A stretch of 64,000 nt of DNA from Salibacterium qingdaonense (GTDB lineage Bacteria; Bacillota; Bacilli; Bacillales; Marinococcaceae). Each line of letters starts with the position of its first letter. Within the stretch, counting starts at the first letter, position 1. The translations under genes and the position numbers were made by a program. Positions 3,815 to 24,694 of this stretch are shown here, piece after piece. Location: contig NZ_FOTY01000009.1 in NCBI RefSeq assembly GCF_900114715.1, positions 1-64,000 of the forward strand, given 5' to 3'. The notes below the pieces were generated by a model. It did no database searches, was not told where the DNA came from, and worked only from the letters and a program-made list of their open reading frames with translations.

Positions 3815-4590
3815 TGTTGATCCTGAAACATCTTTGGAACGTCTATTTGTCTTCCCTGTCCCCTTTTTCACTTTGTAACGGATTGGTTTTTCAACAAATC
3901 GCCAGGAAATGGTGGACAATCTGTCCATACTTCAGATCACTATACAATTGGCCGCTGTTATCGTGATTATAGATAAAACTGCTCCTCTACAGCCAGAGAC
4001 CAAAGATGTAACAAAGGAGTAGGCTCACGTAGCCGAGAAAGTCAACACTAGAATCGGGTAATGCCAGATATAGATGCCATATGAACGAACACCCAGCCAA
4101 CGAAGCGGCCCAAATCCCAGCACACGACCGATCCAAGCGCAGGATGAACCGCAGCGGCGATGATGGCTGTTGTTGCAAAATAACCGACATCCGTGCCAAT
4201 GTACCACCAATTCGATACATAAAGAAACGAAGCCAACCAATGCCCCCAAATATCGACAAATCGGGAAAAGTGAAAGACAACCATCCATCCTCCTACCACG
4301 ATTAATAAAAGAAACAATCCCGGCAGCAGGCGGCGGGCACGGCGCAGCCAAAAATCTTTCAGATCGATTTTCCCTTTGTTTTTCCATTGCCTCATCAAAA
4401 TGTCCGTAATCAAGTACCCGGATAAAACAAAAAATACGCCAACTTTCAAAAATCCGCCAGGTGCCCATGCAAAACCAAAATGGAAAGCAATCACTGCACA
4501 TACAGCAATTGCTCTTATCCCATCTAATCCCGGCATATAACGACCTTTTATCTCTTCGGCAAGGTTGTCAACCATTGGTTGTTTATGCAT
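3815..4590 (-). pseudogene. Acyltransferase-3 (OatA-like) membrane protein, decayed
   Basis: From the minus-strand ATG at 4590 the frame gives YMPGLDGIRAIAVCAVIAFH and GVFFVLSGYLITD, the N-terminal helices of acyltransferase-3 proteins, which O-acetylate peptidoglycan or surface glycans. After NWWYIGTDVGYFA the protein jumps to the C-terminal region, so the central helices are deleted. A frameshift then moves LRWLGVRSYGIYIWHYPIL into another frame. A final piece reading SWRFVEKPIRYK (near 3870-3900) is in yet another context. A fuller paralogue, also broken, lies at 19698-20805. An IS30 element lies 20 bp upstream of the start. Confidence 0.8.
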
Positions 4591-4610: not shown

Positions 4611-5792
4611 ATTAAATGCAACAGCTAAAGGCATCGTTAAAGATATAGCTAAAGCCATCGTTATTCCATTATGATGAAAGGAACCCAACACCCAACATAA
4701 CAGGAGGAATAACGATGACCACTTCCCATGGTACCACAGAAAAGCGGTGTTTTTCTCATCTTTCGGCATTTGATCGAGGACAGATTCAAGCCTTTCGTCA
4801 AGCAGGCAAATCCATGCAGGCCATTGCGGATGCAATTGGGCACCATAAATCAACGATATCTCAAGAGCTTCAACGAGGAACCACAACCCAACGATCGTCG
4901 GATTTGACGAAGTATCAGACCTACTTTCCTGAAACAGGGCAAGCTGTTTATGAGGCCAACCGTGCGCATTGCGGCGCCAAATACAAGTTGGCCCATGCAG
5001 CTTCCTTTGTGCACTTCGCCGTGGCCAAGATACAATCCGAACGTTGGTCTCCCGATGCTGTTTGCGGGCATGCCAATCTCCATCAGTTATATGAAGGAGC
5101 TAAAGTATGCACCAAAACGCTGTACTACTATATTGATAAAGGGCTTCTTCCCATCAAAAATATCGACCTTCTGCAGAAAGTCCGGAGAAAAACGAAAACG
5201 AAGCGGCCCAGGGTTAACAAGAGGATTTATGGAACGAGCATCGAAGAACGCCCCGAACATTTGGAGAACCGCGAAGAATTTGGTCATTGGGAAATCGACA
5301 CAGTGCTGGGCCAACGCCTGAAAGGAACTGCCCTCTTAACGTTGACCGAACGACAGACACGCAAAGAAATTATCATGAAAATCGGGCAAAAGACATCGGA
5401 AGCTGTCAACCAAGCTGTCCAGCGGCTCAAAACCAGGTTTGATGACACTTTTTCGTCCGTCTTTCAGTCCATTACATCGGACAACGGTTCCGAATTCAGC
5501 GAACTTACCGAAGCCGTTGACTGTGATCAGGTTAGCGTCTATTATACGCACCCCTATACCTCCAGCGAGAGAGGTACGAATCAACGCCATAATGGACTCA
5601 TCCGGCGGTTTATCCCCAAAGGAAAATCCATCGATGATCTGGATGACAGCGTCATTGCCTATGTGGAGAACTGGTGTAACACGCTTCCCCGCAAAATCCT
5701 GGGGTACCAATCTCCCAATGACCGGTATGAACAGGCATTGACCAGCGTTATATAATTACAAATAATGGAGTTAAGGTGGTTGTTGCATTTAT
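4611..5792 (+). mobile_element. IS30-family insertion sequence
   Basis: The element spans the transposase gene and imperfect terminal inverted repeats sharing TAAATGCAAC: left end near 4611-4625, right end as its complement near 5778-5792. Length about 1.18 kb is right for IS30. It lies between the start of the acyltransferase remnant and a terminator whose upstream gene is missing, so it probably separated that gene from its promoter. Exact ends and target duplication were not resolved. Confidence 0.7.
4715..5755 (+). CDS. IS30-family transposase
   Basis: The 346-residue protein has an N-terminal helix-turn-helix (LSAFDRGQIQAFRQAGKSMQ, then IADAIGHHKSTISQELQRG), which binds the element ends. 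A DDE integrase core follows: first Asp in HWEIDTVLG, second in TSDNGSEF, and the Glu in SSERGTNQRHNGLIRRF, the most typical IS30 signature. It cuts and joins DNA during circle-mediated transposition. Start ATG is preceded by AGGAGGAA. Length and all catalytic residues are intact, so this is the only potentially active transposase here. Confidence 0.93.
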   Translation: MTTSHGTTEKRCFSHLSAFDRGQIQAFRQAGKSMQAIADAIGHHKSTISQELQRGTTTQRSSDLTKYQTYFPETGQAVYEANRAHCGAKYKLAHAASFVHFAVAKIQSERWSPDAVCGHANLHQLYEGAKVCTKTLYYYIDKGLLPIKNIDLLQKVRRKTKTKRPRVNKRIYGTSIEERPEHLENREEFGHWEIDTVLGQRLKGTALLTLTERQTRKEIIMKIGQKTSEAVNQAVQRLKTRFDDTFSSVFQSITSDNGSEFSELTEAVDCDQVSVYYTHPYTSSERGTNQRHNGLIRRFIPKGKSIDDLDDSVIAYVENWCNTLPRKILGYQSPNDRYEQALTSVI

Positions 5793-5895: not shown

Positions 5896-5908
5896 ATGAT
5901 TGCATCCC

Positions 5909-5954
5909 ATCTGCATCTGATCTGCACAAGATCTTGACATCCTTCCCCTATACT
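5909..5954 (+). promoter_or_regulatory. Activator-type promoter with 11-bp direct repeats
   Basis: Three tandem 11-bp units begin ATCTGCATCTG (5909), ATCTGCACAAG (5920) and ATCTTGACATC (5931). A -10 element TATACT follows at 5949-5954 without a properly spaced -35. Such layout is typical of promoters activated by OmpR-type response regulators. Related boxes precede the two-component genes at 14450, the deacetylase at 18023 and the SGNH remnant at 19122. Confidence 0.5.
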
Positions 5955-6030
5955 TTCCCTTGAGCATGCGGAGTTGCACGATGCATGGAATAAGATCGAT
6001 TCTGCATTTGAACTGGACGAAAGGGAAGTG

Positions 6031-6408
6031 ATGAAGATGGGAAAGAAGAAATTGGGAATGATGATACTCGCCTTGTTGGCCTCGGCGTATGGCAACAACG
6101 GCCAACCAAACGCTCCAAATGGGGAATCTGAGGACTTTTCTTCTGGGGAGTCAGAGGACGGTGTCGCCTCGAAGTCAATATCCTATGAGAAGTTGTATCA
6201 AACGAGTGTGTTTCTCGGTGGTTCGATTACGGAAGGACTGTCTTACCATGATGTGCTGGATGAGGAGAACGTCCTTGCAGGTGTGGGAAAAACAGCTGAA
6301 TTTGCGCTGAAGGAGGATGTAGATCGACTGGTCAGTCGAATGCCGGAGCATATCTATATCCAACAGGGTTCGGATGACATTTTGTGGCCGAAGCAAAGTG
6401 CGGAGTGA
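6031..6408 (+). pseudogene. SGNH-hydrolase lipoprotein, truncated and mutated
   Basis: The frame parallels the SGNH domains of the lipoprotein at 9046: YQTSVFLGGSITEGLSYHDV matches their NSVFVGDSI region, and the frame ends right after GSDDI, the block III position. Three lesions are visible. The lipobox Cys is replaced by Tyr (LASAYG), a one-base change. The GDS catalytic motif has become GGS. The protein stops about 100 residues short of the DxxH block. Promoter repeats lie upstream and the MBOAT gene follows 24 bp downstream, so this was probably the first gene of the operon. Confidence 0.7.
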
Positions 6409-6432
6409 AGGTGCGGGAGGGGGGAATAAGCG

Positions 6433-7839
6433 TTGGTATTCAGCAGCCTGATTTTCCTGTTTCTGTTTCTCCCCGCTGCTTTGCTCATTTATTACTTGTC
6501 GCCGGGGAAGCTGAAAAATGCCGTACTGTTCGCCGCAAGCCTCGTCTTTTACGCATGGGGCGAACCGATCTATATCGTCATTATGATTTTTTCCACCATA
6601 TTCGATTATGCGAACGGGCTGTTGATCGATAAGTACAGGCACCGCAAACCGATATCCCGAGCAGTGCTTATCGGCTCCATCGGCGGTAATCTGGCCATAC
6701 TCGGTTTTTTCAAATATGCCGGCTTTGTCATTCAGAACGTGAACGAGCTGTTCGGCTTGAGCCTGCAGGCCGCCGATCTGCCGCTTCCGATCGGCATATC
6801 CTTCTACACGTTTCAAACGATGTCTTATATAGCGGACGTATACCGAGGCAAGGTGCCGCCACAGCGTAACATGATAAACTTCGGCACTTACGTGGCCATG
6901 TTTCCGCAACTGGTCGCCGGACCGATCGTCAAATACGGTGATATTGCGAAACAGCTGGCCTCTCGTAAAGTGACGCTGGAACGGTTCGGTGAAGGGGCGA
7001 AGTGGTTCATCCGGGGACTCGTCAAAAAGGTGCTTCTGGCGAACAATATTGGAATGTTGTGGACGAGTGTGAAATCCACCCCGCTGGAGGAATTGAGCGT
7101 TCTTTCCGCTTGGCTTGGAATTTTGGCGTTTACGTTTCAAATTTATTTTGACTTTAGCGGGTATTCGGATATGGCGCGCGGACTTGGCAAGATGTTCGGC
7201 TTTGATTTGCCGCAAAACTTTAATTATCCATATATTTCAAGAAGCGTGACGGAATTTTGGCGCAGATGGCATATTTCACTGGGTTCCTGGTTCCGGGAGT
7301 ATGTCTATATTCCGCTTGGCGGCAATCGGCGCGGCTTGCGCAAGCAGCTGAGAAATCTCTTGATCGTCTGGTTTTTGACCGGTTTGTGGCATGGGGCAAG
7401 TTGGAACTTTGTCGTATGGGGCTTGTATTTCGGTTTTATCGTGACCGTTGAGAAGTTGTTTCTCCTGAAGTGGCTGACGCGCTGGCCGAATTGGACGGGA
7501 CATCTATATACGCTGTTGATCGTGATTCTGGGGTGGGTCCTGTTCGAATATGAACATTTGCCTTCCGCATGGGCGTTCATCGGGACGATGTTCGGGCTCG
7601 GAGCGCACGAGTGGGTGGATCGCCAGGCGCTTTATGACCTGCTGACGAACGGAGGATTGTTCGTGCTCTTGGCAATATGTGCGACACCGCTTCCGCGGAA
7701 GATGGTCGAGCTTGTGGAAAGGCGCTGGAATCGCGGAGGCGTGATCGTGGTTACCACATTCTATACGATCGGATTGATATTGTCGACCGCTTATTTGGTT
7801 GACGAGTCTTATAATCCGTTTATGTATTTTCGCTTTTGA
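6433..7839 (+). CDS. MBOAT-family membrane O-acyltransferase (AlgI/PatA-like)
   Basis: The 468-residue protein is a multi-pass membrane O-acyltransferase. It has about eleven helices, the early motif YAWGEPIYIVIM, the central RRWHISLGSWFREYVYIPLGGNR typical of AlgI and DltB relatives, and the invariant catalytic His in TGLWHGASWNF. These proteins pass an acyl group, usually acetyl, across the membrane to an extracellular partner that modifies a surface polymer. Here the partner is probably the DHHW protein next door, 13 bp downstream. Translation starts at TTG 6433 after GGGAGGGGGG. The target polymer is unknown. Confidence 0.92.
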   Translation: MVFSSLIFLFLFLPAALLIYYLSPGKLKNAVLFAASLVFYAWGEPIYIVIMIFSTIFDYANGLLIDKYRHRKPISRAVLIGSIGGNLAILGFFKYAGFVIQNVNELFGLSLQAADLPLPIGISFYTFQTMSYIADVYRGKVPPQRNMINFGTYVAMFPQLVAGPIVKYGDIAKQLASRKVTLERFGEGAKWFIRGLVKKVLLANNIGMLWTSVKSTPLEELSVLSAWLGILAFTFQIYFDFSGYSDMARGLGKMFGFDLPQNFNYPYISRSVTEFWRRWHISLGSWFREYVYIPLGGNRRGLRKQLRNLLIVWFLTGLWHGASWNFVVWGLYFGFIVTVEKLFLLKWLTRWPNWTGHLYTLLIVILGWVLFEYEHLPSAWAFIGTMFGLGAHEWVDRQALYDLLTNGGLFVLLAICATPLPRKMVELVERRWNRGGVIVVTTFYTIGLILSTAYLVDESYNPFMYFRF

Positions 7840-7852
7840 GAGGAGGGGAATC

Positions 7853-9004
7853 TTGACTGGATATAACAAATGGGTTCGGTCTGTCATCGGCTTATTGCTG
7901 CTGTTATTTATCGGGACGATGGTTGTCATCAACTTTTTGACGCCTGACAAAACGTTCTCGGAAGCGGAAAACCGGGTGCTGGATAGCCGGCCGTCTTTCT
8001 CGCTGCAATCGTTACTGTCAGGGGAATTCATGAAAGATTATGAGCAATATGTAACCGATCAATTTGCATTCCGGAACGAATGGATCGGGATAAAGACCGA
8101 TGCGGATCGCGCTCTGGGTAAAAAAGACAGCAACGGCGTATATCTGGGTGCGGATGGCTATCTCATTCAATCTTTCACGTCACCGCAAGAGGCGGATATG
8201 GAAGAACGAATCAGGGCGATTCATTCGTTTCATCAGGATACGCCCGACCTTCGCAAGTATATTCTGCTGGCACCGACGGCCGCCTCGGTGCTTCAGAGCA
8301 AATTGCCGGCGTATGCGCCAGTTGGCAATCAGCGGGCTGTTCTGAATCAATTCCGGCAGAAGCTTGAGCGGCTTGGGCCCGATATTCGCTTTATTGACGT
8401 GTATCCCGCCTTATATGCGAAGCGGGAGGAATACATTTATTATAAAACGGATCATCATTGGACTACAAAAGGCGCTTATTACGCTTATCAAGCGCTGGGT
8501 CAAGAAATGGGGTTAACACCGAAGGAGGAAGAGTACTTTAACATTACAAAAGGGGCGGATGCATTTTATGGTTCACTCTACTCGAAAAGCGGCTTCAAAC
8601 ATTTAAATCCCGACAGTATTTCATTATATTTGCCAAAAAGCAAGGAGCAGGTTCAGGTTGAATATTTGGGCGGGGAATATAAAAGCACCGATTCGCTTTA
8701 TGCCATGGATCATCTCCATCAAAAAGATAAATATGACGTATTCCTTAACGGCAACCATTCATTAGTGAAAATCACAACGGGTCATGAACAAGAAAGAAAA
8801 CTGCTGGTGGTGAAGGACTCTTATGCGAATTCCTTTATTCCTTTTTTGGCATTGCATTTCAGTGAAATTTATGTCGTGGATCTCCGATATTATACGGATT
8901 CTCTCGATACACTCATACGAGAAAATCAAATCCAGGACATGTTATTGCTGTATAATGCCACCACGTTTTTCGACGATCCGTTTATAAAGGATTTATCCGA
9001 GTGA
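7853..9004 (+). CDS. DHHW-family AlgJ/AlgX-like acetylation protein
   Basis: The start chosen is TTG 7853 after GAGGAGGGG, giving 383 residues. A signal-anchor helix (about residues 8-26) precedes an extracellular SGNH-like domain. The name-giving motif appears as YYKTDHHWTTKGAYYAY near residue 205; its Asp and His belong to the catalytic set of AlgJ/AlgX-type proteins. A GADGYLIQ strand and a late VVKDSYANSFIPFL segment, where the nucleophilic Ser sits, complete the pattern. By analogy with alginate acetylation it would take the acyl group from the MBOAT channel and place it on an exported glycan. The stop overlaps GTG 9001 of the next frame, so translational coupling is likely. Confidence 0.88.
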   Translation: MTGYNKWVRSVIGLLLLLFIGTMVVINFLTPDKTFSEAENRVLDSRPSFSLQSLLSGEFMKDYEQYVTDQFAFRNEWIGIKTDADRALGKKDSNGVYLGADGYLIQSFTSPQEADMEERIRAIHSFHQDTPDLRKYILLAPTAASVLQSKLPAYAPVGNQRAVLNQFRQKLERLGPDIRFIDVYPALYAKREEYIYYKTDHHWTTKGAYYAYQALGQEMGLTPKEEEYFNITKGADAFYGSLYSKSGFKHLNPDSISLYLPKSKEQVQVEYLGGEYKSTDSLYAMDHLHQKDKYDVFLNGNHSLVKITTGHEQERKLLVVKDSYANSFIPFLALHFSEIYVVDLRYYTDSLDTLIRENQIQDMLLLYNATTFFDDPFIKDLSE

Positions 9005-9045
9005 ATATGCGAAAAAATCGATACTGGAAAGGGGCTTCGAATCAC

Positions 9046-10686
9046 ATGCTTCACTATTTTAAAATGTTCAATAAAAAGTCATTTGTTACAATGATGGTAT
9101 TTACCATAGGTGTTTTAACCGGATGTTCCAGCAAAGAGGAAATGATGGATCTTTCAGCTGTAGAAGTCGGAGAAAAAATCAAACAGGATGTCAATTTGGA
9201 TGAAATGCAGGAGGAAGACATCGAACAACTTCAAAACCTTTATGACATCCGTGCTGAAGAGGTTGAGAGTTTTATCCTTAATCTTGCTTCCACCAATGTG
9301 CAAGCAGACGAGGTGGCTGTGATCAAAGCAAAAGATGCCGAAAATGTGGCGGACATGAAAGAAAAAATAGCCAACAGAGTCCAAGATAAAGCGAAAAGTT
9401 TTCAAGACTACCTTCCTGCTGAATATGCACTCATCGAAAATTATGTATTAAAAACAAAAGGCAACTTTGTGTTTCTTGCGATATCGGAAGAGGTAGATCA
9501 AATCGAACGTGCGTTTGATGAAGCTTTAAATGGCAACTTACCTTCCACGGCTTCAAATGATTCAAATGATCAAGATCCCAATCAACAACCAAATTCTTCC
9601 TATCAATCCACGTTCAGCAACAGTGTATTTGTGGGTGATTCCATTATTGGCGGCCTGACCAATGACGATCTTCTGGATGGCATTCATGTGATGGGGGGTT
9701 TGGGCGCAACCGCTGAATTTACATTGGAACATGTGGATGAAGTAGTTCGCCGAAAACCGGGATATGTTTTTTTATCTTTGGGGCAAAACAACATTGAAGA
9801 ACCCGTTAAGGAATCAAAGGAAAATTTTGAAAATCAATATTCAAAATTGGTGCGCGAGATCCAGGAAAAGCTCCCGAATGCAAAAATATACATGTTATCG
9901 ATTACACCCGTATCATCGGATGTCCCGGAAGGTAATCTTTCCAACAAAGATATTGATGATTTTAATTTGGCATTGCAAGACATCGCCGAGACGGAAGATG
10001 TTGACTACATCGACCTGTCCCCCATTTTTGAAAATAACGATATTCGCTACGCCGAAGACGGTTCGCATTTCCAAAATGATTTCTATCCGCTTTTGCTTGA
10101 TTATTTAAAGGAGGAGACGGATATCGAAACACAGTTCCAAAAATCAAGGGTCATCGATTCTAATGATGAATATAAGCAAATATTTAAAAATAGCGTGTTC
10201 ATGGGAGATGATATCATTGGATCGCTAACTTATCTGGACAAATTGAATGAAGAAAATGTAATCGCACCTTCAGGGGCAACGCTGGACTTGCTTCAACTTA
10301 ATGTTGAACAATTGGTAAATCAAAAACCTGAACATATCTTCATTCTGATTGGCAGCAACGATATCACCATTGTGGACCAGGAAGAATTCATCGAGAAATA
10401 CGTAAAGTTAATCAACAGTATTCAGGAGGAGCTTCCGAGTGCCAAAATCAACATATTGTCGATTCCGCCTGTTTCCGATAATGCCTTGCGCAAAGAGCCT
10501 CGTTATGAAAATATCGAAGCGTATAATCAATCGCTCCAAGATCTTGCTGCAACTGAAAAAATAAATTACATTGATTTATCGCCTATTTTTAAAAATAATA
10601 CAATCCAATACACTAAGAATGGAATACATTTTAAACCTGATTTTTATTCCCTATTTCTAGACTATATAAAAGACGACGTAGGTTAG
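9046..10686 (+). CDS. Lipoprotein with DUF4358-like domain and two tandem SGNH domains
   Basis: Starting at ATG 9046, a 27-residue signal ends in the lipobox LTGC. A GTG at 9001 overlapping the previous stop is an alternative start. Residues about 30-165 resemble DUF4358 lipoproteins. Two SGNH-hydrolase domains follow, joined by short linkers. The first keeps the nucleophile (VGDSIIGG, Ser near 199), a block III GQNN and DGSH in block V. The second reads MGDDIIGS, with Asp at the nucleophile position near 389, and NGIH instead of DxxH, so it looks catalytically dead although it retains GSND. The protein should sit on the outer membrane face and bind or deacylate the polymer modified by the MBOAT/DHHW pair. 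Confidence 0.82.
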   Translation: MLHYFKMFNKKSFVTMMVFTIGVLTGCSSKEEMMDLSAVEVGEKIKQDVNLDEMQEEDIEQLQNLYDIRAEEVESFILNLASTNVQADEVAVIKAKDAENVADMKEKIANRVQDKAKSFQDYLPAEYALIENYVLKTKGNFVFLAISEEVDQIERAFDEALNGNLPSTASNDSNDQDPNQQPNSSYQSTFSNSVFVGDSIIGGLTNDDLLDGIHVMGGLGATAEFTLEHVDEVVRRKPGYVFLSLGQNNIEEPVKESKENFENQYSKLVREIQEKLPNAKIYMLSITPVSSDVPEGNLSNKDIDDFNLALQDIAETEDVDYIDLSPIFENNDIRYAEDGSHFQNDFYPLLLDYLKEETDIETQFQKSRVIDSNDEYKQIFKNSVFMGDDIIGSLTYLDKLNEENVIAPSGATLDLLQLNVEQLVNQKPEHIFILIGSNDITIVDQEEFIEKYVKLINSIQEELPSAKINILSIPPVSDNALRKEPRYENIEAYNQSLQDLAATEKINYIDLSPIFKNNTIQYTKNGIHFKPDFYSLFLDYIKDDVG

Positions 10687-10764
10687 GGGGGACATTGATG
10701 CTCTGGATGTTGGCTTAACGTAATATCGAGCGAAAAATGAATCGAACCCCCATAGCAAAAAAGT

Positions 10765-10796
10765 GGCAGCTCATGTTCTTGGCTGCCTTTTTCTTT
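10765..10796 (+). terminator. Rho-independent terminator of the MBOAT operon
   Basis: Stem GGCAGC (10765-10770) pairs with GCTGCC (10782-10787), followed by a T-rich tract. It lies 78 bp after the SGNH lipoprotein stop. Confidence 0.75.
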
Positions 10797-11015
10797 GTCC
10801 TTATATCCCTTCAGTGACAATAACGAAAAGAAATAGATTGTGCAGAAATAAAACCCAGGATGGCGTTTCATAAAATGGAATACGTAGTTGAGGCAGCCAC
10901 AAAAGAGATCCGTACTGTTGAGTTTAAAAAAACGTTTGGTTGTAACCGTCAAGTTAATTTGAACAGTTTTTGCTCATTTATTTTGGGGTCTAAACCATAA
11001 TATGTTCTTGACTGC

Positions 11016-12253
11016 TTAATACTGAACTTTCTCTTCATTACACTCCAGCAAAATGCGTTGCTTGTACCCTTCGGGGTTGCGAGTGAAGGAATGCCGGCGC
11101 TGCAGCGCTTTGATTTTATTATTTTTGCCTTCGACGGCTGCATTCGTATAACGGACTTGTGATAATTACAAATCTCTTCCTGCCAAGTCTGCATTGTTTT
11201 TAAGCAGGACTTCACGGCTGGATGATCGATGGATACTCCGTCCTGCAGCCATCGCTGAAATCCTTTTTTGGCAAGCTTATAGGAGGAACTTTCGTCGTAC
11301 CATTGCATAAATGATTCTTTCCAGGCATGGGGTTGGTGAAGCAGCGGGGAATAAGACAGTAAAACAGAGAGCTCCCGCCGTTCCCTTTCCGTGAGACGAT
11401 CCTGTCGTTTCCCTATCAAGTGGTGGTTGCGCTTTAGATGACGGCCTTCGTGAGGGGTCAGCTTTTTTTGTTCTGCCTTCCGGACATGCTGCAGCGCCTC
11501 TGTGACGTAACGATTCACGTGACATCGGTCTGCAATGCGAATGGCAGAGGGGTAGATTTCCTTAACAAACCTATGGTAACTGCTTGCTAGATCAAGAACG
11601 ACAGCTGTCGGCTGAAGGGTCCCCCATTCGGGGTTTTTCTCGACATAATCATGGAGTTCTTCTTTCGTGCGGCCGGGAATCACATCAAGAAATGTTTCGC
11701 CGCGCAAATCATGCAAACCTGTATTATAAGTGTGGCCTTTTCGAATGGCGAAATCATCCAAGCCTAAAACAAGGGTTGGACGAGCCGCGGCTTCTTCCCT
11801 GCATTCCTTTTGGATACGTTGACTTTCGGTGTTCATCCATCGGTGAAACCATCGCGTCAGAGAGGTAACCGGCATCTGTAACAAGGCCGCTGCATGTTTT
11901 ACAGTCGCCCCTGTAATAGAAGAAAAAGCCTGCCGTTCCAATCTTTTGGTAACCTTTTTTTTCGGCTCTACACTCTCGTAATTCCAGACAAACGAACCCT
12001 TACAGGAATGACAATAAAGCCGGATGGCTGGCAGATGGAGAAATACTTTAGAACCAAAGGCTGCAAGGTCTCTTACTTTCCGGCGATAAGCCACACCGCG
12101 CCTAATAACGCGTTCTTTCGACCGGCAGGTCGGGCAGGACTGCCGCGAAGTGCAGGGTTTGACCCCAAATTCAATTGTATCCATCTCTTTTTGAACGGAG
12201 ATAATCTTTAACTCTGGCAGATCTAATAAATCATTGATAGAATGAACGTACAT
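11016..12253 (-). pseudogene. ISL3-family transposase, frameshifted
   Basis: The minus-strand frame begins at ATG 12253 after GAGGGAT. It shows the ISL3 pattern: an N-terminal zinc-finger-like C-x2-C pair (SCPTC and LYCHSC), a helix-turn-helix, then the DDE core with LGLDDFAIRKGHTY (first Asp) and VVLDLASSYHRFVKEIYP (second Asp). Near 11150 one extra base shifts the frame. The normal C-terminus, including the catalytic Glu in NAAVEGKNNKIK, lies in another frame that ends at 11016, while the shifted frame runs on to 10949. Without programmed frameshifting the product is inactive. Confidence 0.85.
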
Positions 12254-12359
12254 CTGTATCCCTCTTTTGTTGGTTGGTGGTACTTTCAACATAACAGAGG
12301 GGCAGGTGTTTTTTCATTTATGACGACCATTTAAACGCATCTATTTTATTGTCAAGAAC

Positions 12360-12647
12360 ATGTTTCGGTGTAGATCCAAACTTGATTTATTGATTCTGGA
12401 TGAGCTTGGGTATATCCCCTTGCATAAGCAGGGAGCTGAGCTGTTATTTCAAGTCATCAGTCTGTGTTACGAAAAGAGAAGCATCATCATCACAACGAAT
12501 CTTCAGTTTGGAGAATGGAATCATGTATTTGGAAATCCCATCTTAACAGAAGCTGTCGTGGATCCTCTGATTCACCATTCTCACCTCGTATTATTTGATG
12601 GCGACAGCCATCGGCTGAGAGAATCTATGGCTTTTCAGCCTATGTAA
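12360..12647 (+). pseudogene. IS21 IstB helper ATPase fragment
   Basis: The fragment contains the Walker B strand [22 protein letters not shown] and the sensor region IIITTNLQFGEWNHVFG of IstB, the AAA+ ATPase that assists the IS21 transposase. The P-loop half is missing and it abuts the ISL3 remnant. DRLIHH of intact IstB has become DPLIHH, in line with decay. Confidence 0.85.
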
Positions 12648-12687
12648 GAATCAGGGAAGCAAGTGGCTACATAAATGTTTTGCCGTT

Positions 12688-12954
12688 TTATGCATTTTTC
12701 TCTTGCCAAATACACTTATCGACATCTTCCACCTTAAACTGAAACAAGAATGATGATTGTGTTTCCGCATCCACAGGTTTATTTTCCTCGCCAACTCCTT
12801 CGGCCATCATTTTTCGAGGTAACAGTTCGATCTTGGTTTCCCCAGTGTCAAAAAGAGCATACTCTATGCCTTCGTCACACATGATAATCGGCAGCTTGAA
12901 AAAAACGGACCTCCTTTCCTGAGTGAACGGAAACCCTTCATTTTCCAACGACAT
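12688..12954 (-). pseudogene. VOC (glyoxalase/bleomycin-resistance fold) fragment
   Basis: Part of the 88-residue frame, ALFDTGETKIELLP followed by FLFQFKVEDVDKCIWQEK, matches the end of one beta-alpha-beta-beta-beta module and the start of the next in VOC-superfamily proteins. Both ends are missing, and it lies between two istB fragments. I take it as a cut-down remnant; the original function cannot be told. Confidence 0.5.
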
Positions 12955-13011
12955 TAATCAAAGAATCATTAACAGCCTTACGATTTTTAGGGCATCAGGA
13001 AAATATCATCA

Positions 13012-13251
13012 TTGCTTATTTTGGATGAATTAGGATATGTGCCGTTCCAAAAAGAAGGAACAGAGCTTTTATTCCATCTTATAACAGATTGTTACGAGCG
13101 AAAAAGCGTTATTGTCACCACCAATCTGGAATTCGGGCAGTGGAATCGTGTATTTGGAGATAATCGTTTAACGGGAGCTCTTGTGGACCGTCTGGTCCAT
13201 CACGCTCGAACGGATCGGATGGAACGAAACAAAAGGTGCTGTGGAAAATAG
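13012..13251 (+). pseudogene. Second IS21 IstB fragment
   Basis: The frame starts directly at the Walker B strand [20 protein letters not shown] and runs through [33 protein letters not shown]. It differs at many positions from the fragment at 12360, so it comes from a different IS21 element and not from a recent duplication. The P-loop is missing. Confidence 0.85.
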
Positions 13252-13355
13252 CCACTGCTTAAGGAAAGTGGTATAGCCCGGGTTCTTTCGATTTCTTTTT
13301 TCTCAAGCGGTATGTTCGAGGTGTGCGTGTCGGTTAACGCCTGGAAACCGGGATG

Positions 13356-13994
13356 TTAAAGGTTTTTACCGGCTTCAACAGCTCTTTTGATCAATTCCAT
13401 TGGGTTATTTTTTTCAGATTTTAATTCATATACTACACGACCGTCCTGCCATTTTACGACGGAGCTGGGAGAATCCTTGAATCCTTGGATTTTGATGACG
13501 CCTTGATTATCAGGAGCTGGTAGATAGTGGGTTTCGAGATACGCTACAATCGTTTCTGCCAGCTTTCGGCTATCCGGGTGGTTTTTTACAGCGTACTTCG
13601 ATTGAATAGGGTAATCTATTTTAATGAGCCAGTTTCCCTCATTCCAGGAAATAAATTTATGACCCGCACCTGCATCCTGCAAGGCTGTGATGCCGTGGCC
13701 AAGATCAATATTCGTCTGTTTGACTGTACGATAATCACTTATGGCAGCCGCGGCTTTTTCAGAGTTGTCAAAGCTTTGTTTTTCAACTCCGCTGTTTGTA
13801 GAGGAGGCACTGGTATCATTGCTGCTTGATGCTGTTTCCTGCTGTGAAGGTTCCTGCGCTTCCTGACTGCTGCCGACTTCTTGCGTGTTTTCCTGGTGGG
13901 TGCTGCCGCTGTCATCTGCCGCTGAAGAGTTGGAAGTGCAACCGGTAAGCAGGATAGAGAAAGCACAGAAGGCGGCTACATGCATTCGTTTCAT
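13356..13994 (-). CDS. Hypothetical lipoprotein with Ser/Thr/Gln-rich linker
   Basis: From ATG 13994 (alternative GTG 14006) the protein has a signal peptide ending in the lipobox LTGC. A low-complexity linker rich in Ser, Gln and Glu (about residues 20-72) leads to a folded domain of about 140 residues with a WNEGNWLIKIDYP strand and a C-terminal RVVYELKSEKNN segment. It should be anchored on the outer face of the membrane. I do not recognise the domain. It stands alone, convergent to the istB fragments and divergent from the two-component genes. Confidence 0.7.
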   Translation of the reverse strand: MKRMHVAAFCAFSILLTGCTSNSSAADDSGSTHQENTQEVGSSQEAQEPSQQETASSSNDTSASSTNSGVEKQSFDNSEKAAAAISDYRTVKQTNIDLGHGITALQDAGAGHKFISWNEGNWLIKIDYPIQSKYAVKNHPDSRKLAETIVAYLETHYLPAPDNQGVIKIQGFKDSPSSVVKWQDGRVVYELKSEKNNPMELIKRAVEAGKNL

Positions 13995-14449
13995 CGTTTC
14001 GTTCACCCCTACTTATTGTAAGTGTATTCTATTTTAATCATACTCTTCATAAAACACTTCTACAACGGTACTGCTCTCATGATTTTTCACGTATATAAAA
14101 AAGTCGGGGTAAAAGCCTGACATCCTTATCTCCGCATCAAAATAGCTTCATCTTTTTTTTATTTCCTTCCTTCCTGATATACTCAACACTAACATCTCCT
14201 AGATGGTCTTCTGTCCTTATTGGTTGCTCAAGCAGGAAGTCTATTGATTTTGGGAATGGTTAACAAGTGGCTTTTTTTGTTTTTCACCTTCTTAGCCAAC
14301 CAACATAGAAGGCCTGCCATTACCTACATTTTTAGAATGCCATAAACAGTTCACCCGGCATCTGAGATAACCACTATTGCTAACAACAAATCATAGACCA
14401 GCGAGGGGAGCACAGCTTCCTCTTTTCACACGAAACAGCGAAGAGCCGC
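13995..14449. other. Long divergent intergenic region
   Basis: AT-rich spacer between the lipoprotein and the two-component operon with no supported gene. The operator-like repeats of the response-regulator promoter lie at its right end. Confidence 0.5.
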
Positions 14450-14479
14450 ATCTTTATCTCATCTTTACATCACTATGCT
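14450..14479 (+). promoter_or_regulatory. Direct-repeat boxes in front of the two-component operon
   Basis: Two adjacent 11-bp units, ATCTTTATCTC (14450-14460) and ATCTTTACATC (14461-14471), are followed by a TATGCT -10-like hexamer (14474-14479). The 11-bp period fits head-to-tail binding of an OmpR-family dimer, so the operon is probably autoregulated. Confidence 0.5.
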
Positions 14480-14522
14480 ATCTTTTAAGGTAGTAATCAT
14501 TTAGGTATTGTGGGGGAGACAA

Positions 14523-15209
14523 ATGCCAAAAACAATATTAATCGTAGAAGATGAAGCCATTTTACGTGAAATAGTTAAGGATTATTTATTAAATGAAGGA
14601 TATGAAGTATTAGAAGCAGCAGATGGGAATGAAGCTTTAGCTATTTTTGAAGAACATGATGTACATTTAATTATTTTGGATATTATGCTGCCGGAGGTAG
14701 ATGGATGGTCCGTTTGCAGAAAAATCCGTAAAACTTCCGATGTGGCGATTATTATGCTGACAGCACGTACGGATGAAGATGATACACTGCTGGGTTTTGA
14801 ATTAGGCGCTGATGATTATGTCACAAAGCCATACAGTCCGCCAATATTACTGGCGAGAGTGAAACGATTAATGGATAGCCGCTATGCCCGGGCAGGTAAG
14901 TTATCGGATGAAGACACTTTAATCAGTAATGGTATCCATGTCCACTTTTCTACGCGGACAGTGACAGTAGATGGAGAAAGAATCAGTCTGACATACACGG
15001 AATTTGAAATATTAACCTATTTAATGCAAAATCAAGGGATTATTATTACAAGGGAACAACTTATCACTAAAATCTGGGGCTATGAGTTTGACGGTGATGA
15101 TCGAACAATCAATAGTCACATCCGCAATTTGAGGCATAAAATAGGCGCTAAAGGAAATTGTATTGTCACGGTTATTCGGGCTGGCTATAAATTTGAGGAC
15201 AAAACATGA
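14523..15209 (+). CDS. OmpR/PhoB-family response regulator
   Basis: ATG 14523, 6-8 bases after GGGGGAG, gives 228 residues. The receiver domain (1-118) has the acidic pocket EDE (9-11), the phosphoacceptor Asp53 in ILDIMLPEVDGW, Thr in MLTAR and Lys in VTKPYSP. The C-terminal winged helix (about 130-226) carries LTYTEFEILTYL and the recognition region REQLITKIWGYEFDGDDRTINSHIRNLRHKIG. It should bind 11-bp-spaced direct repeats and be phosphorylated by the kinase encoded with a 4-bp overlap. Boxes upstream of nearby wall genes point to a cell-envelope role, but the exact system is not recognised. Confidence 0.93.
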   Translation: MPKTILIVEDEAILREIVKDYLLNEGYEVLEAADGNEALAIFEEHDVHLIILDIMLPEVDGWSVCRKIRKTSDVAIIMLTARTDEDDTLLGFELGADDYVTKPYSPPILLARVKRLMDSRYARAGKLSDEDTLISNGIHVHFSTRTVTVDGERISLTYTEFEILTYLMQNQGIIITREQLITKIWGYEFDGDDRTINSHIRNLRHKIGAKGNCIVTVIRAGYKFEDKT

Positions 15210-16990
15210 AAAAAGGCATTGTATTAAAATTATTTTTGCTGACAGCCTTATTGTGTATGCTTATTCTTGCAACGATATATATTGGACAAACGGTGTTTTT
15301 CAAGCAATATTATGCAACACAAGAGGTAGATGACATTAAAACGAGTATTGAATCTTTTAAGAAGGAATTCTTGAAGGCCGGGGAAAATGTACAGGCAATG
15401 AAAAGGTTGGAGCAGGATTTCTATCAGGAGCATTCGACGTGGATTACAACGTTAGACAGTGCAGGAAATATGAAACACACAAATGATTTTTCTGTGACAA
15501 TTCATTCAGATGCTTCTCAGAATAAGAACCTCGCTAATCGTGATATTACTATCCCTTTGTACAGTTTTATCGGCTTAGAGGACTTAGAAAGGATAAAGTT
15601 TGATTTAGAACAAGGAAAGCGTATTACGATAGATGGGATACTAGCAGATAATACAGTAATTCCTGCCATTTTAACTAGACAGAACGGGAATTTTGGATTA
15701 GAGAATAAGCTGCTCACGGAAGAGTTATATGGAAACAGCACGGAAACAGACCCCCTTGGAGCAAGAGACTCGCAGGTATATTTAACGGGAAACATTAAGA
15801 AATTACAATTACCTGTAGGAACCGTACGTTCACCTATTTACACAAATCGTGTGTTTATCGAACAAATCAAACAATTTCAAGCAAAGCTGCTATTTAATGA
15901 TAATTATAATGACCGTGCGAAAACAATGGATTATGAGAAAAATGGTATTGAGTACAAAATATTCATCCGACCGATGAAAGATGCGAATGGTGAAACTGCT
16001 TATATTTTTGCTATGACGTCATTACAGCCAATTGATGAAGCTGTGCAAATGTTAGAAGATTATTATATCTACCTAATTATATTGGCATTGCTCCTTATTG
16101 TTCTGGCATCCTTTTATTTTTCGAAAAAAATCGCCAAACCATTGCTGCAAATCAACGATACGACAAGCAGAATGGCCAACCTGGATTTTTCCGAGACCAT
16201 ACCTGTCAAGTCAAAGGATGAAATTGGTACGTTATCCCACAATATTAACAGTCTCTCTACCACCCTGCATTCGCACATTAATCAATTGCAGGAGGATATA
16301 GAGAAGGAAAAACAACTGGAACATACACGTAAAGAATTTATTTCCGGTGTGTCACATGAATTAAAGACACCTTTAAGTATATTGAAGAGCTGCATCTCTA
16401 TTTTAGAAGATGATGTTGCTAAGGATAAAAAAGATTATTATTTTAACGCAATGGCAAACGAAGTCGATAAAATGGACATGCTTATTGTCGAAATGCTTGA
16501 ATTGGCAAAATTTGAATCCGGAACGTACAAAATGGAAATGGATGTCTTCTATATTGATCAAGTCATCGAGTATATTTGCGAACAATTATCTTTAGATATC
16601 GCTGACAAGCAATTACATGTGCATAAACACCTTTCCGGGACAAGAGTCGTTGCAAATCAGCATCGCATAGAACAGGTTGTTACGAATTTCATTACCAATG
16701 CGATCCGCCATACCCCGGAAGATAAAAACATTATTATTTCTACTAAAAGTGAGCAGGAACTTGTTAAAGTATGTGTCGAAAACAACGGGTCTCCTATCGC
16801 AGAAGAACATGTAGAAAAAATATGGGATCGTTTTTATCGTGGAGATACGTCCCGTGACCGTTCAGAAGGCAGTATGGGATTGGGGCTTGCTATTTCAAAA
16901 AATATCTTGGAATTGCATGGTGTGCAATATGGTGTAACGAATACAGAAGAAGGCGTGCTGTTTTACTTCTATTTGAATAAAAAAGAATAG
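15206..16990 (+). CDS. Membrane sensor histidine kinase
   Basis: ATGA overlap with the regulator couples translation. Of 594 residues, helix 1 (about 7-29) and helix 2 (about 286-306) enclose a large extracytoplasmic sensor domain of about 255 residues. HAMP follows (about 307-360), then the dimerisation domain with the phosphoacceptor His384 in SGVSHELKTPLS, then the ATPase domain with N box NFITNAIRHT, G1 DRFYRGD and G2 GSMGLGLAISK. The big sensor domain suggests detection of a wall or surface signal. It probably phosphorylates the preceding regulator. I see no close match to a named kinase. Confidence 0.93.
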   Translation: MKKGIVLKLFLLTALLCMLILATIYIGQTVFFKQYYATQEVDDIKTSIESFKKEFLKAGENVQAMKRLEQDFYQEHSTWITTLDSAGNMKHTNDFSVTIHSDASQNKNLANRDITIPLYSFIGLEDLERIKFDLEQGKRITIDGILADNTVIPAILTRQNGNFGLENKLLTEELYGNSTETDPLGARDSQVYLTGNIKKLQLPVGTVRSPIYTNRVFIEQIKQFQAKLLFNDNYNDRAKTMDYEKNGIEYKIFIRPMKDANGETAYIFAMTSLQPIDEAVQMLEDYYIYLIILALLLIVLASFYFSKKIAKPLLQINDTTSRMANLDFSETIPVKSKDEIGTLSHNINSLSTTLHSHINQLQEDIEKEKQLEHTRKEFISGVSHELKTPLSILKSCISILEDDVAKDKKDYYFNAMANEVDKMDMLIVEMLELAKFESGTYKMEMDVFYIDQVIEYICEQLSLDIADKQLHVHKHLSGTRVVANQHRIEQVVTNFITNAIRHTPEDKNIIISTKSEQELVKVCVENNGSPIAEEHVEKIWDRFYRGDTSRDRSEGSMGLGLAISKNILELHGVQYGVTNTEEGVLFYFYLNKKE

Positions 16991-17010
16991 CAAATTTTAT
17001 GAAGCAAAAA

Positions 17011-17048
17011 AGCCGTCCGTTTAATTTTATTGAACGGATGGCTTTTTT
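17011..17048 (+). terminator. Rho-independent terminator of the two-component operon
   Basis: An 11-bp stem (17011-17021 with 17033-17043, one G-U pair) closes an AT-rich loop and is followed by six T, 20 bp after the kinase stop. Confidence 0.9.
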
Positions 17049-17184
17049 GTATGGAGTGACCACAAAAACCGATTCTATCAGATTACAAATTTTTTATACG
17101 GTATTGATCTTATATGCACCTGAACTTTACATCTATCTATTAATCTTTAAAACGCAGCTTTGAAAAAGAAAGGATAGATGAAAG

Positions 17185-17922
17185 ATGGTATTTCAACAGA
17201 AAAATGGGAGAAATCACAGGACACGAAATATATTGGTTGTTACATTGCTTTTATTTCCCATTCTATTAATGTCGGCTTGCTCCGGCAATCCCGAGAACAA
17301 CAATCATAATAATGCCAGTAGCAGCAATAACAGTGAAAACAGTGAAAACAAAAACACAGCCTTTAAGGTGGCGATCGATCCGGGACATGGCGGGAGAGAT
17401 CCCGGCGCAACAGGCGCCAGCGGCCAATATGAAAAGAGTTTCACGTTAAATTTATCGAAAAAAGTGGAAAAACGGCTGGAGCAGGAATCGGGAATGGAAG
17501 TTTTCATGACGAGAACAGATGACAGCTTTATTTCCCAAGAAAGCCGAGAAAGGCCCAAATACGCCAATAGAAAAAACGCAGATGTATTTATATCTATTCA
17601 CGGTAACACTTTTTCCGATCCCAATGTTTCAGGTACCGAAACGTATTATTATCACAAGACTTCCCACCAGTTTGCTCAGATTTTACAGAAACATGTGGTG
17701 AAAGCTACCGAATTCAGGGATAGAGGAATCAAGAAGAAAGATCTGTTCGTTGTAAGGGATACGGAAATGCCGGCAGCCTTGCTTGAAGTAGGTTACCTGA
17801 CGAATTCCGCGAACGAATCCAAAATGCATACGGACGATTTTCAATCACGTGTTGCCGACTCCATTGTGAAAGGGATTAAAGAATACAAAGAAGAATCAGA
17901 AAAACAAGGTATTTTCAGCTGA
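17185..17922 (+). CDS. Lipoprotein N-acetylmuramoyl-L-alanine amidase (Amidase_3)
   Basis: A 32-residue signal ends at the lipobox LMSAC, followed by an Asn/Ser-rich linker and an Amidase_3 domain (about 60-240). Zinc ligands are visible: His in AIDPGHGGRDPG, Glu in YEKSFTLNL, His in VFISIHGN. The catalytic Glu lies in LLEVGYLTN. It cleaves the bond between muramic acid and the stem peptide. Most CwlD/LytC-type enzymes lack a lipid anchor, so this one would act close to the membrane. ATG 17185 follows AAAGAAAGGA. Upstream, ACTTTACATCT with a downstream TATTAA resembles the two-component promoter but lacks clear repeats. Monocistronic, with its own terminator. Confidence 0.93.
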   Translation: MVFQQKNGRNHRTRNILVVTLLLFPILLMSACSGNPENNNHNNASSSNNSENSENKNTAFKVAIDPGHGGRDPGATGASGQYEKSFTLNLSKKVEKRLEQESGMEVFMTRTDDSFISQESRERPKYANRKNADVFISIHGNTFSDPNVSGTETYYYHKTSHQFAQILQKHVVKATEFRDRGIKKKDLFVVRDTEMPAALLEVGYLTNSANESKMHTDDFQSRVADSIVKGIKEYKEESEKQGIFS

Positions 17923-17961
17923 ATCTTTTAGGGGCCCGCCCAAAGATCTCTATGGAATGCA

Positions 17962-18010
17962 GGCTATCCAATTTTCTGACTTTATAAGTCAATAAATTGG
18001 ATGGCTTTTT
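17962..18010 (+). terminator. Rho-independent terminator of the amidase gene
   Basis: A 13-bp stem (17962-17974 with 17994-18006, with G-U pairs) encloses a 19-base loop and ends in TTTTT. Confidence 0.8.
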
Positions 18011-18022
18011 CCGTTTTATCAA

Positions 18023-18076
18023 ATCTTTAGCTCAAGTCCATTTCATCTTCATTTCGTCTTTATCCCACTTTATTAA
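18023..18076 (+). promoter_or_regulatory. Four phased 11-bp boxes before the deacetylase
   Basis: Successive 11-bp units begin at 18023 (ATCTTTAGCTC), 18034, 18045 (ATCTTCATTTC) and 18056 (GTCTTTATCCC). TATTAA at 18071-18076 may be the -10. Spacing and core match the boxes upstream of the response regulator. Confidence 0.5.
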
Positions 18077-18115
18077 TCTGTCTACAAGATTAATAAATGA
18101 AATCGAGGTCTTTAT

Positions 18116-18916
18116 ATGAAAAAGCTCATACTATTTATTTTCCTTGGCTGTTTGGTTATTTTTTATGCCTGTAGTACGGAGACAGAACCTGATAACGAAT
18201 CATCTGAGATATATTCGGAAGATAAAGGCTCATCCGATTCACAAAGAACAGAATCTGATAGGTCACAGGAAAAAAATATAGAAAAAAAGACTGTCTACTT
18301 AACCTTTGATGACGGTCCTACTTCAGCAACCACAGATATTTTAGATACTTTACACCAATTTAACGCCAAAGCAACCTTTTTCATGCTGGAACCTTCTATG
18401 AGAGAGTCACCAGAAGTTGTAAATAAGATCATAGAGCAAGGTCATGCTGTAGGTTTACATGGTGTGACCCACGACATAAACAACTTTTATAAATCTGAAC
18501 AATCCGCTCTTAAAGAAATAACTACCGCACAGGAGACCCTTCAACAAATTACAGGAGTCAGGTCCAATCTCATTCGGACACCTTATGGCAGTGTTCCGTA
18601 TTTAACTAAATCATATCGGGAGGTTTTAGACAGCAATGGTTTTAAATTGTGGGATTGGAATGTTGACAGCAGGGATTGGTCCTTATCCAGTGAGCAATAT
18701 TTGGATACGGTTATTGAACAAATAGAAGAACAAGTAAATGCAGGAGTGACGCCAATTATTCTTATGCATGATAAACAAAACACAGCTGACCATTTGTCTA
18801 GTCTATTAGCTTATCTATCGGAACATGGGTTCCAGACTGAAAAAATTAAAGAAAACACAAAACCATATAACTTTAACTGTTATCAACGTTGTCATCAAAT
18901 ATCCACACAGGAATAG
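18116..18916 (+). CDS. Lipoprotein polysaccharide deacetylase (NodB domain)
   Basis: The 266-residue protein has a signal ending in the lipobox FYAC and an acidic linker to about residue 58. A carbohydrate-esterase-4 domain follows: TFDDGPTSATT (motif 1), HGVTHDINNF (metal-binding H-x3-H type motif 2), RTPYGSVP (motif 3), DWNVDSRDW (motif 4) and ILMHD (motif 5). All catalytic positions are kept. It should remove acetyl groups from GlcNAc or MurNAc in peptidoglycan or another surface glycan outside the cell, changing sensitivity to hydrolases. The phased boxes upstream link it to the two-component system. Confidence 0.92.
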   Translation: MKKLILFIFLGCLVIFYACSTETEPDNESSEIYSEDKGSSDSQRTESDRSQEKNIEKKTVYLTFDDGPTSATTDILDTLHQFNAKATFFMLEPSMRESPEVVNKIIEQGHAVGLHGVTHDINNFYKSEQSALKEITTAQETLQQITGVRSNLIRTPYGSVPYLTKSYREVLDSNGFKLWDWNVDSRDWSLSSEQYLDTVIEQIEEQVNAGVTPIILMHDKQNTADHLSSLLAYLSEHGFQTEKIKENTKPYNFNCYQRCHQISTQE

Positions 18917-19121
18917 AGTGAACAAGAATTGAAGGAGAGCGTTAATGAGTCTCCCCCTGCCAGCAGTTGTTAAAAATTTGCTTATCATCGACTCTCAAGT
19001 TCAATTTTTATTATTATTTAATTTTAAAAAAACAAGATTGCTTGGATTCAGTAGAAGGTTGCCCAAATGAAAGGAGAACCGATTCCTGCTTCGGTAGAGA
19101 ACCAACGTATTTTTCGTTGAA
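18917..19121. other. No gene recognised
   Basis: Spacer after the deacetylase with no plausible reading frame or terminator. The operator-like boxes of the next unit start at its right end. Confidence 0.5.
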
Positions 19122-19165
19122 ATCTTTACTTGAGATCAACAACATCCTCATTTGATCTTTACCGT
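19122..19165 (+). promoter_or_regulatory. Phased ATCTTTAC boxes before the SGNH remnant
   Basis: ATCTTTACTTG (19122), AGATCAACAAC (19133), ATCCTCATTTG (19144) and ATCTTTACCGT (19155) are exactly 11 bp apart. This is the same arrangement as at 18023-18066. Confidence 0.45.
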
Positions 19166-23422: not shown

Positions 23423-23432
23423 GAGGGTACCT

Positions 23433-23738
23433 ATGTTAGTGAGGGTATTAAATGTATGTGTTGTTTTGTTTATTTGTATGATAGTTACTGCCTTTTCTAT
23501 AGCTGGTTTCACGCCAGAGGTTGCAGAAAACCTCTTTACCATTTCATGGTTGAGTGTATCCATGAGAATTTTGATATTTATGGTATGGACCGGTACAGTG
23601 ACGAATGCTGTTCGCAAGTATTACAAGGAAAACCAAGTGAGGCTTGTTCACTTTCGGATTGGCCTGTTGGTAACGATAGTTGGTCTTTTGTTCTTTGAAT
23701 GGAAAAACGGCTGGCCGATTATCAGTTCAATTTTCTAG
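23433..23738 (+). CDS. Array copy 1: three-helix membrane protein, putative immunity protein
   Basis: ATG 23433 follows AGGAGGGT, and the 101-residue product opens MLVRVLNVCVVLF. Helices lie at about 4-26, 44-62 and 75-90. Between helix 1 and 2 is the family hallmark AGFTPEVAENLFTISWLS, and the C-terminus is EWKNGWPIISSIF. It has no signal peptide cleavage site and should be an inner-membrane protein. It starts 10 bp after the stop of the glycine-rich gene, so the two are co-transcribed. A longer in-frame start at 23349 would overlap that gene and lacks conservation with the other copies. No database family is recognised; immunity is inferred from context. Confidence 0.8.
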   Translation: MLVRVLNVCVVLFICMIVTAFSIAGFTPEVAENLFTISWLSVSMRILIFMVWTGTVTNAVRKYYKENQVRLVHFRIGLLVTIVGLLFFEWKNGWPIISSIF

Positions 23739-23875
23739 TTTGTTCGTCTGTCGTGAACACTTTAAATAAGCAGAGGTAAAGCGGCAGCCTCCCTGTTGAA
23801 GATGTAGCCTGCGCCGATACAGAATCAACTTCAACATAACATCGATGAAAACAAATAGCCGTATAGGGGATGGGT

Positions 23876-24174
23876 ATGTTAGTGAAGATATTAAATGTAT
23901 GTGTTGTCTTATTTTTTGGTATAGGGATTGCTTTTTTGGTTTTAGGAAGTATCAATTCGTAGTTGGGGATGTTTACCATTTCATGGTTCAGCATCTTTAT
24001 GAGGCTGTTTATGTTGATATTAATGATTGGTGCGATGACCAATTTGTTCCGGATGCATAAAAAGAAGACCAAGTGAGGCTTGTTCACTTTCGCAATGGTG
24101 TATTGGTAACTATATTCGGAATGTTATTTTTTTACTGGAAAAATGGTTGGCCGATCATGAACTCGTTGTTTTAG
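23876..24174 (+). pseudogene. Array copy 2, degenerate
   Basis: ATG 23876 opens MLVKILNVCVVLFFGIGIAFL, but a TAG at about 23960 falls where other copies read FTPEVAED, which is deleted. Coding-like sequence resumes (MFTISWFSIFMRLFMLILM) and then loses frame at the VRKYYKENQ position near 24062. The tail TGKMVGRS corresponds to EWKNGWP in the wrong frame. Confidence 0.85.
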
Positions 24175-24254
24175 TGTTGTATTCGTTGTCAGGCACTTAA
24201 GTGGATTGTGCAGCGGATGTACGCTTTTACCGGAGCAGATAGGTGGGGCTAAAG

Positions 24255-24557: not shown

Positions 24558-24694
24558 TTTGTTCGTCTGTCGTGAACGCTTTAAATAAGCAGAGGTAAAG
24601 CGGCAGCCTCCCTGTTGAAGATGTAACCTGCGCCGATACGGAACAACTTCAACATAACATCGATGAAAACAAATAGCCGTATAGGGGAATACGT

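Follow-up and report, generated by a model that had tools for sequence, protein, structure and literature searches.

What does a two-component system (TCS) control when short, regularly spaced DNA boxes recur before its own genes and before the cell-wall genes around them? The question is raised by a locus within a 64,000-nucleotide stretch of the genome of Salibacterium qingdaonense, a halophilic relative of Bacillus (contig NZ_FOTY01000009.1, positions 1 to 64,000; hereafter the window), which encodes a response regulator (RR) and a sensor histidine kinase together with an amidase, a polysaccharide deacetylase and SGNH/MBOAT acyl-transfer proteins. A sequence-only reading had placed 11-bp-phased boxes before the SGNH/MBOAT operon, the two-component genes, the deacetylase and an SGNH remnant, and had proposed a local envelope-remodelling regulon. 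The boxes were present where that reading had put them, with exact 11-bp phasing, and we consider it very likely that they are operators of the neighbouring OmpR/PhoB-family RR, which would control a private, self-contained regulon of wall genes.

Sequence reading and per-register scoring indicated that ATCTTYA-like 7-bp boxes in strict 11-bp phase precede five transcription units. At the SGNH/MBOAT promoter, boxes had been reported from 5909 to 5941; they are there, but the core register that places a -10 element at +29 is 5920/5931 and not 5909/5920, TATACT at 5949-5954 lying exactly at +29 from box 5920. The single box suggested before the amidase near 17124 was real (17123), but it is not single and belongs to a degenerate four-box operator. 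Both the amidase and the deacetylase promoters of the window carry TAATCT at +29. The SGNH-remnant promoter shows a 22-bp difference from that of Salibacterium halotolerans, and it is probably dead because it has no counterpart of the -10 region of S. halotolerans.

The possibility that the boxes are chance matches in AT-rich DNA was assessed with patterns of increasing stringency. The bare pattern ATCTTTA-N4-ATCTTTA, with up to three mismatches, occurred 14 times in the window compared to 8.85 expected (standard deviation 3.31), a count reached by 10 of 100 shuffles and hence no significant excess over shuffled sequence; genome-wide, with up to two mismatches, 54 matches were found compared to 31 for the control. 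Taken by itself, this crude scan would go halfway towards dismissing the motif as common. A position weight matrix (PWM) was then trained on 12 RR promoters from other genomes, with the window excluded and the near-duplicates L010 and L022 left out. Its four best sites in the 64 kb were 14450 (33.0), 18045 (22.1), 19144 (21.3) and 5909 (15.3), followed by a next-best score of 12.7, and about 0.1 site scoring above 14 was expected per 64 kb (100 Markov sequences, one strand scanned and the count doubled). Because the training set held a near copy of the promoter at 14450 (that of L016, S. halotolerans), the independent evidence comes from 18045, 19144 and 5909; with 14450 excepted, the scan was independent of the effector sites. 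The concern that a two-box motif is common in AT-rich DNA thus holds for the loose pattern, which is near chance, but the results for the external PWM and the full operator speak strongly against it. These results, together with the conservation across genera and the whole-genome confinement described below, make chance an extremely improbable source of the boxes. A literature lead for ATCTTTA, PMC7726353, was set aside as irrelevant, since the passage concerned has the motif in a primer.

Conservation was assessed in 33 non-duplicate loci, namely the window, 15 loci from a first kinase search (one re-fetched) and 17 from a survey of 397 genomes of the order. The first search gave 17 loci, of which two partial ones (L024 and L025, 35% and 31%) were dropped. 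The survey identified the kinase at E <= 1e-120 in 25 genomes, own genome included; 19 were fetched, four (G103, G326, G384 and G400) were left out and two (G000 and G003) were already in the set. L021 and L022 were kept over their duplicates L147 and L150, and the wider L135 took the place of L014. The first search had turned up kinase relatives in Lentibacillus, Virgibacillus, Lysinibacillus, Salibacterium, Halalkalibacter, Heyndrickxia, Lederbergia, Paenibacillus and Gracilibacillus. Many RR promoters of these relatives share a ATCTTTATCTCATCTTTACAT-like core with a TATGATAT-like stretch after it, though the DNA further upstream differs; the core was not seen in L014 and L015 (Lysinibacillus), L029 or L024.

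An operator precedes the RR operon in 29 of the 33 loci, of which 23 were assigned by script and six by hand (L134 and the permease-led L138 and L140-L143). Across the set, 111 of 121 sites scoring at least 14 lie upstream of an open reading frame (ORF), a zone that makes up 15.4% of strand positions; some operators among the 121 were counted in two registers. The amidase cluster is present in 30 loci, the deacetylase cluster in 27 and both in 26. Besides those of the RR, script-assigned operators precede genes for the deacetylase (22), the amidase (19, one of which, at the gene start in L021, is probably spurious), SGNH proteins (8), an ABC permease (6), a solute-binding protein (4) and a LytR-CpsA-Psr protein (1). 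The amidase operator scores better in Lentibacillus (L009, L010 and L011) than in the window, and an SGNH-MBOAT-DHHW operon like that of the window is preceded by an operator in Lysinibacillus (L135:10523 and L015:14356). In one clade (L137, L138 and L140-L143), ABC permease genes under the same operator precede the RR and kinase genes. Two permeases stand directly before the RR in L138, L140, L142 and L143, one is shortened in L141, and an ORF intervenes in L137; in L137, L140, L142 and L143 a separate operator precedes the gene for a solute-binding lipoprotein. One genome, G304 (L136), has the TCS twice in tandem, and an operator-led amidase gene follows each copy.

To describe the promoters, one operator per promoter was taken, its register set by PWM score alone, and an 80% identity cut left 20 RR and 45 effector promoters. 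Two features that the PWM did not contain emerged. Effector promoters carry extra boxes at -22 and -11, with means of 5.36 and 5.20 of 8 compared to a background of 3.17 (n=45), the next-best offsets after the two selected boxes, whereas RR promoters gave 3.05 and 3.00 at these offsets compared to 3.10 (n=20), i.e. no extra boxes. TANNNT, which covers the best-conserved positions of a -10 element, occurs at +29 in 19 of 20 RR and 37 of 45 effector promoters, while other offsets in effector promoters reach at most 13%. On average, then, the full effector operator consists of four 7-bp boxes in 11-bp register followed by TANNNT at +29, and RR promoters keep two boxes.

The boxes apparently stand in for the -35 element, since a -35 at the usual 17-bp spacing would overlap the spacer and the last positions of the first box, where no TTGACA-like sequence is conserved. 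An RR that binds the boxes and represses by blocking polymerase, the genes being induced when the kinase is off, would suit the position of the second box, which ends about 10 bp before the -10-like element. The lack of a conserved TTGACA-like -35 argues against such repression, as do the sites of the activator PhoB, which likewise cover the -35 region (PMC3348028). We regard repression as very unlikely, and activation as the probable mode.

The distribution of the full core operator was assessed genome-wide with a composite of the boxes and the -10-like element. In the own 3.52-Mb genome, all four matches with up to two mismatches lie in the locus, with one control match. With up to three mismatches, six of nine matches lie in the locus and three elsewhere, compared to three matches of the reversed control; the six represent five promoters, as 5909 and 5920 are two registers of one promoter. 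Among 13 TCS-positive genomes (those of L015, L022 and L023 left out, and L016 represented by G003, with the same coordinates), hand counts gave 51 matches, 37 within about 12 kb of the kinase and 14 elsewhere, with 12 for the control; with up to one mismatch, 33 of 35 were local. In contrast, 30 relatives without a kinase match (E <= 1e-40) gave 14 operator matches, all with two mismatches, and 14 control matches. A further scan that included the L018 genome placed 18 of 48 matches away from the TCS, compared to 13 control matches. Eight of these 18 were inspected, seven lying inside a reading frame and one (L079) between genes, and the 18 were treated as chance. A genome search for the box motif, which the sequence-only reading had called for, found the operator concentrated at the locus. 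The operator is conserved, has a common architecture and co-occurs with the TCS. In different genera it precedes RR operons and wall genes, within the own genome it is restricted to the locus, and in relatives without a kinase match it falls to control level. This comparison supports the proposed local envelope-remodelling regulon and suggests direct binding by this RR.

A further explanation is that the boxes are bound by some other, common regulator that recognises 11-bp-phased half-sites (WalR or PhoP, for example), the adjacent TCS being one more target. WalR sites, as given in passages of PMC9210968, are likewise 11-bp direct repeats (TGTWAH-N5-TGTWAH), and 21 of the 111 sites hold one WalR half-site in the core; yet the full WalR consensus was found in none of the 111 on either strand. 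WalRK is said in PMC9210968 to be present in all Firmicutes, yet the 30 relatives without a match to the kinase of the window, in which WalRK is presumed, are at control level, and remote operator matches are near control level as well. On this evidence, in which the consensus compared was that of WalR, we consider this explanation very unlikely.

Several observations weigh against the operator interpretation. No convincing RR-promoter site was found in four of the 33 loci (L135, L015, L152 and L153), and some sites lie inside kinase genes (L018:8889 and L022:9649). The amidase site of the window scores only 7.7 with the PWM, joint tenth in the window, and the site of the MBOAT operon was found by the composite pattern in the own genome only at three mismatches. 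Eight of the 45 effector promoters have no TANNNT at +29, and RR promoters carry TANNNT at +24 too, in 45%. The composite pattern was designed after the effector sites had been seen, so the own-genome, 13-genome and 30-relative scans are not independent of those sites. The enzyme roles rest on family matches.

The RR has the makeup of an OmpR/PhoB-family member, with a predicted receiver that holds the conserved Asp and a C-terminal winged helix. The phospho-acceptor D54 is kept in all 32 aligned orthologues, as are R195, H200, R202, N203 and R205, the DNA-contact helix having been assigned by hand. A model of the kinase sensor has a PAS/Cache-like topology (mean predicted local distance difference test score, pLDDT, 81.2). 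Foldseek with this model gave no match at E <= 0.001, and phmmer with the sensor region gave no PDB relative up to E = 1. VIA-align gave Z 10.6 to an integrative WalK model (root-mean-square deviation (rmsd) 4.2, 184 residues aligned) and a middling likeness to the WalK extracellular domain (Z 8.5, rmsd 3.1, 129 aligned) and to several double-Cache domains (Z about 8). No NCBIfam cut-off was reached among the best 25 of 100 models for the RR or the best 25 of 76 for the kinase. Identity with PhoBR was not supported (PhoB TIGR02154 201.6, cut-off 296.2; phoR_proteo 183.6, cut-off 334.2; PnpS 175.2, cut-off 400), nor was identity with WalRK (YycF 200, cut-off 340; WalK 214.8, cut-off 725) or with VanRS (VanR-ABDEGLN 196, cut-off 350; VanS 130.7, cut-off 400). 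Divergently upstream of the RR, at 13356-14006, lies a gene for a lipoprotein-like protein of 216 amino acids (aa) that has no Pfam or NCBIfam match and clusters with proteins of two other loci.

Table 1 Coordinates of predicted operators and genes of the locus in the window
Feature	Position	Strand	Remarks
Putative SGNH/MBOAT operator-promoter	5898..5954	+	boxes 5898 (poor, 4/8), 5909, 5920, 5931
Short SGNH/GDSL lipoprotein-like ORF, 144 aa	5974..6408	+	no Pfam match; clusters with SGNH proteins; probably truncated
MBOAT O-acyltransferase	6433..7839	+	PF03062, 8.9e-29
DHHW/AlgX-like SGNH acetyltransferase partner	7799..9004	+	PF14286, PF16822
DUF4358 and two GDSL/SGNH stretches, 561 aa	9001..10686	+	
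Putative RR autoregulatory operator, two-box	14450..14484	+	boxes 14450, 14461; -10-like TATCTT 14479-14484; conserved in RR promoters of other genera
OmpR/PhoB-family response regulator, 229 aa	14520..15209	+	receiver PF00072 6.1e-30; winged helix PF00486 2.7e-25
Sensor histidine kinase, 594 aa	15206..16990	+	predicted extracytoplasmic PAS/Cache-like sensor; HAMP, HisKA, HATPase
Putative amidase operator, degenerate four-box	17090..17146	+	boxes 17090, 17101, 17112, 17123; -10-like TAATCT 17141-17146
Amidase_3 N-acetylmuramoyl-L-alanine amidase, 245 aa	17185..17922	+	lipobox-like N-terminus by eye; CwlD model 149.3, cut-off 221.55
Putative deacetylase operator, four-box	18023..18079	+	boxes 18023, 18034 (weak), 18045, 18056; -10-like TAATCT 18074-18079
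Polysaccharide deacetylase, 266 aa	18116..18916	+	PF01522; lipobox-like N-terminus by eye; best NCBIfam model 158.5, cut-off 400
SGNH-remnant operator boxes	19122..19162	+	boxes 19122, 19133 (weak), 19144, 19155; without the -10 region seen in S. halotolerans
SGNH lipoprotein remnant, 103 aa	19219..19530	+	followed by broken acyltransferase-3 frames up to 20805

In the mechanism that we propose, the phosphorylated RR would bind head-to-tail on the 7-bp ATCTTYA boxes, 4 bp apart, in place of a -35 element, and would recruit RNA polymerase to a -10 element, TANNNT, beginning at +29 from the first box of the core pair. The two-box RR promoter would provide autoregulation. At the wall genes, four boxes stand in phase and the upstream two are weaker, so activation there would probably need more phosphorylated RR and cooperative binding; box number may thus set a threshold, with effectors requiring more activated RR than the RR promoter. 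The genes predicted to respond encode surface enzymes (amidase, N-deacetylase and the MBOAT/SGNH acyl-transfer proteins), which may serve to remodel or shield peptidoglycan.

The kinases of the window and of S. halotolerans form a group with those of four Lentibacillus in the kinase tree (100/100), whereas that of the same-genus genome G001 (L134; 59% identity) falls elsewhere. The island appears either to have moved between genera or to have been differentially lost; transfer of the unit together with its operators would be the simpler reading, and the unit probably moved as an island. In this genome the island shows decay: the SGNH and acyltransferase reading frames beyond 19219 are broken and lack the upstream -10 region, while the acyltransferase-3 frame is unbroken in S. 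halotolerans (L016:11533-12663).

Other features of the surroundings were recorded. The SGNH/MBOAT operon lies between two transposase-like ORFs at 4715-5755 and 10949-12292 (by eye IS30-like and ISL3-like), and positions 4048-4590 hold an acyltransferase-3-like fragment. Further along, the region 22292-26332 begins with a gene for a 376-aa protein without an NCBIfam match (22292-23422), after which comes a row of small membrane-protein-like ORFs (about 100-130 aa) that start near 23349, 24243, 24695, 25106, 25592 and 25985 and appear related by eye. The arrangement resembles an array of tandem immunity genes next to a gene of the secreted-toxin type.

These results assign to one TCS, across many Bacillales, a predicted operator and promoter architecture and a full set of predicted target genes, and predict a regulated wall chemistry of amidase, deacetylase and O-acylation activities. 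Regulator, operators and effectors lie side by side and apparently move as a unit, which makes the locus a small natural example in which to ask what keeps a regulon private among OmpR-family paralogues and how thresholds are set by two-box and four-box promoters. The operator-led permeases and solute-binding lipoprotein beside the TCS in one clade hint that the signal may be a sugar or wall fragment. A more speculative idea, and one we consider rather unlikely, is that the locus is a portable peptidoglycan feedback module. The kinase would detect what its own enzymes produce (glycan that is peptide-stripped or deacetylated, or a released fragment) and homeostatically set the levels of amidase, deacetylase and O-acyl transfer, and the permeases and solute-binding lipoprotein of that clade would recapture released sugar. 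The CwlD-like amidase and the deacetylase could then make peptide-free, deacetylated glycan in vegetative walls, outside sporulation.

Searches of the open-licence PMC literature turned up no description of this TCS, although it may be in print elsewhere. The system was compared with known ones. B. subtilis YvrGHb is an OmpR-type cell-surface TCS that acts on surface genes, and the system here would be like it in these respects. WalRK offers a second comparison. B. subtilis WalRK is described in PMC7299342 as monitoring the products of the hydrolases it controls, which suggests by analogy that a similar feedback logic may operate here, and PMC9210968 reports that WalR overexpression in C. difficile raises pgdA and two amidase genes. 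WalK is also among the top VIA-align rows for the sensor model; the two systems differ in that the system here is patchy, with the kinase in only 25 of the 397 genomes, and its regulon is confined to its own locus. The geometry of the operators is that of PHO boxes, which PMC4415409 and PMC4832192 describe as two 7-nt direct repeats with a 4-nt spacer (11-nt units) on which RRs bind head-to-tail. In the latter, M. tuberculosis PhoP binds more tightly to three and four motifs in a row than to two. The operators of the window are like the boxes of E. coli PhoB and M. tuberculosis PhoP in their 7-bp repeats, 4-bp spacing and -35 position. They differ in their core, which is ATCTTYA here and CTGTCAT (E. 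coli) or GTTCACC (S. coelicolor) in the PHO boxes quoted in PMC4415409, and in their predicted targets, which here are wall enzymes. Taken together, these comparisons, which rest on sequence, describe what appears to be a TCS of the OmpR family whose operators resemble PHO boxes and whose private, local regulon would remodel the wall.

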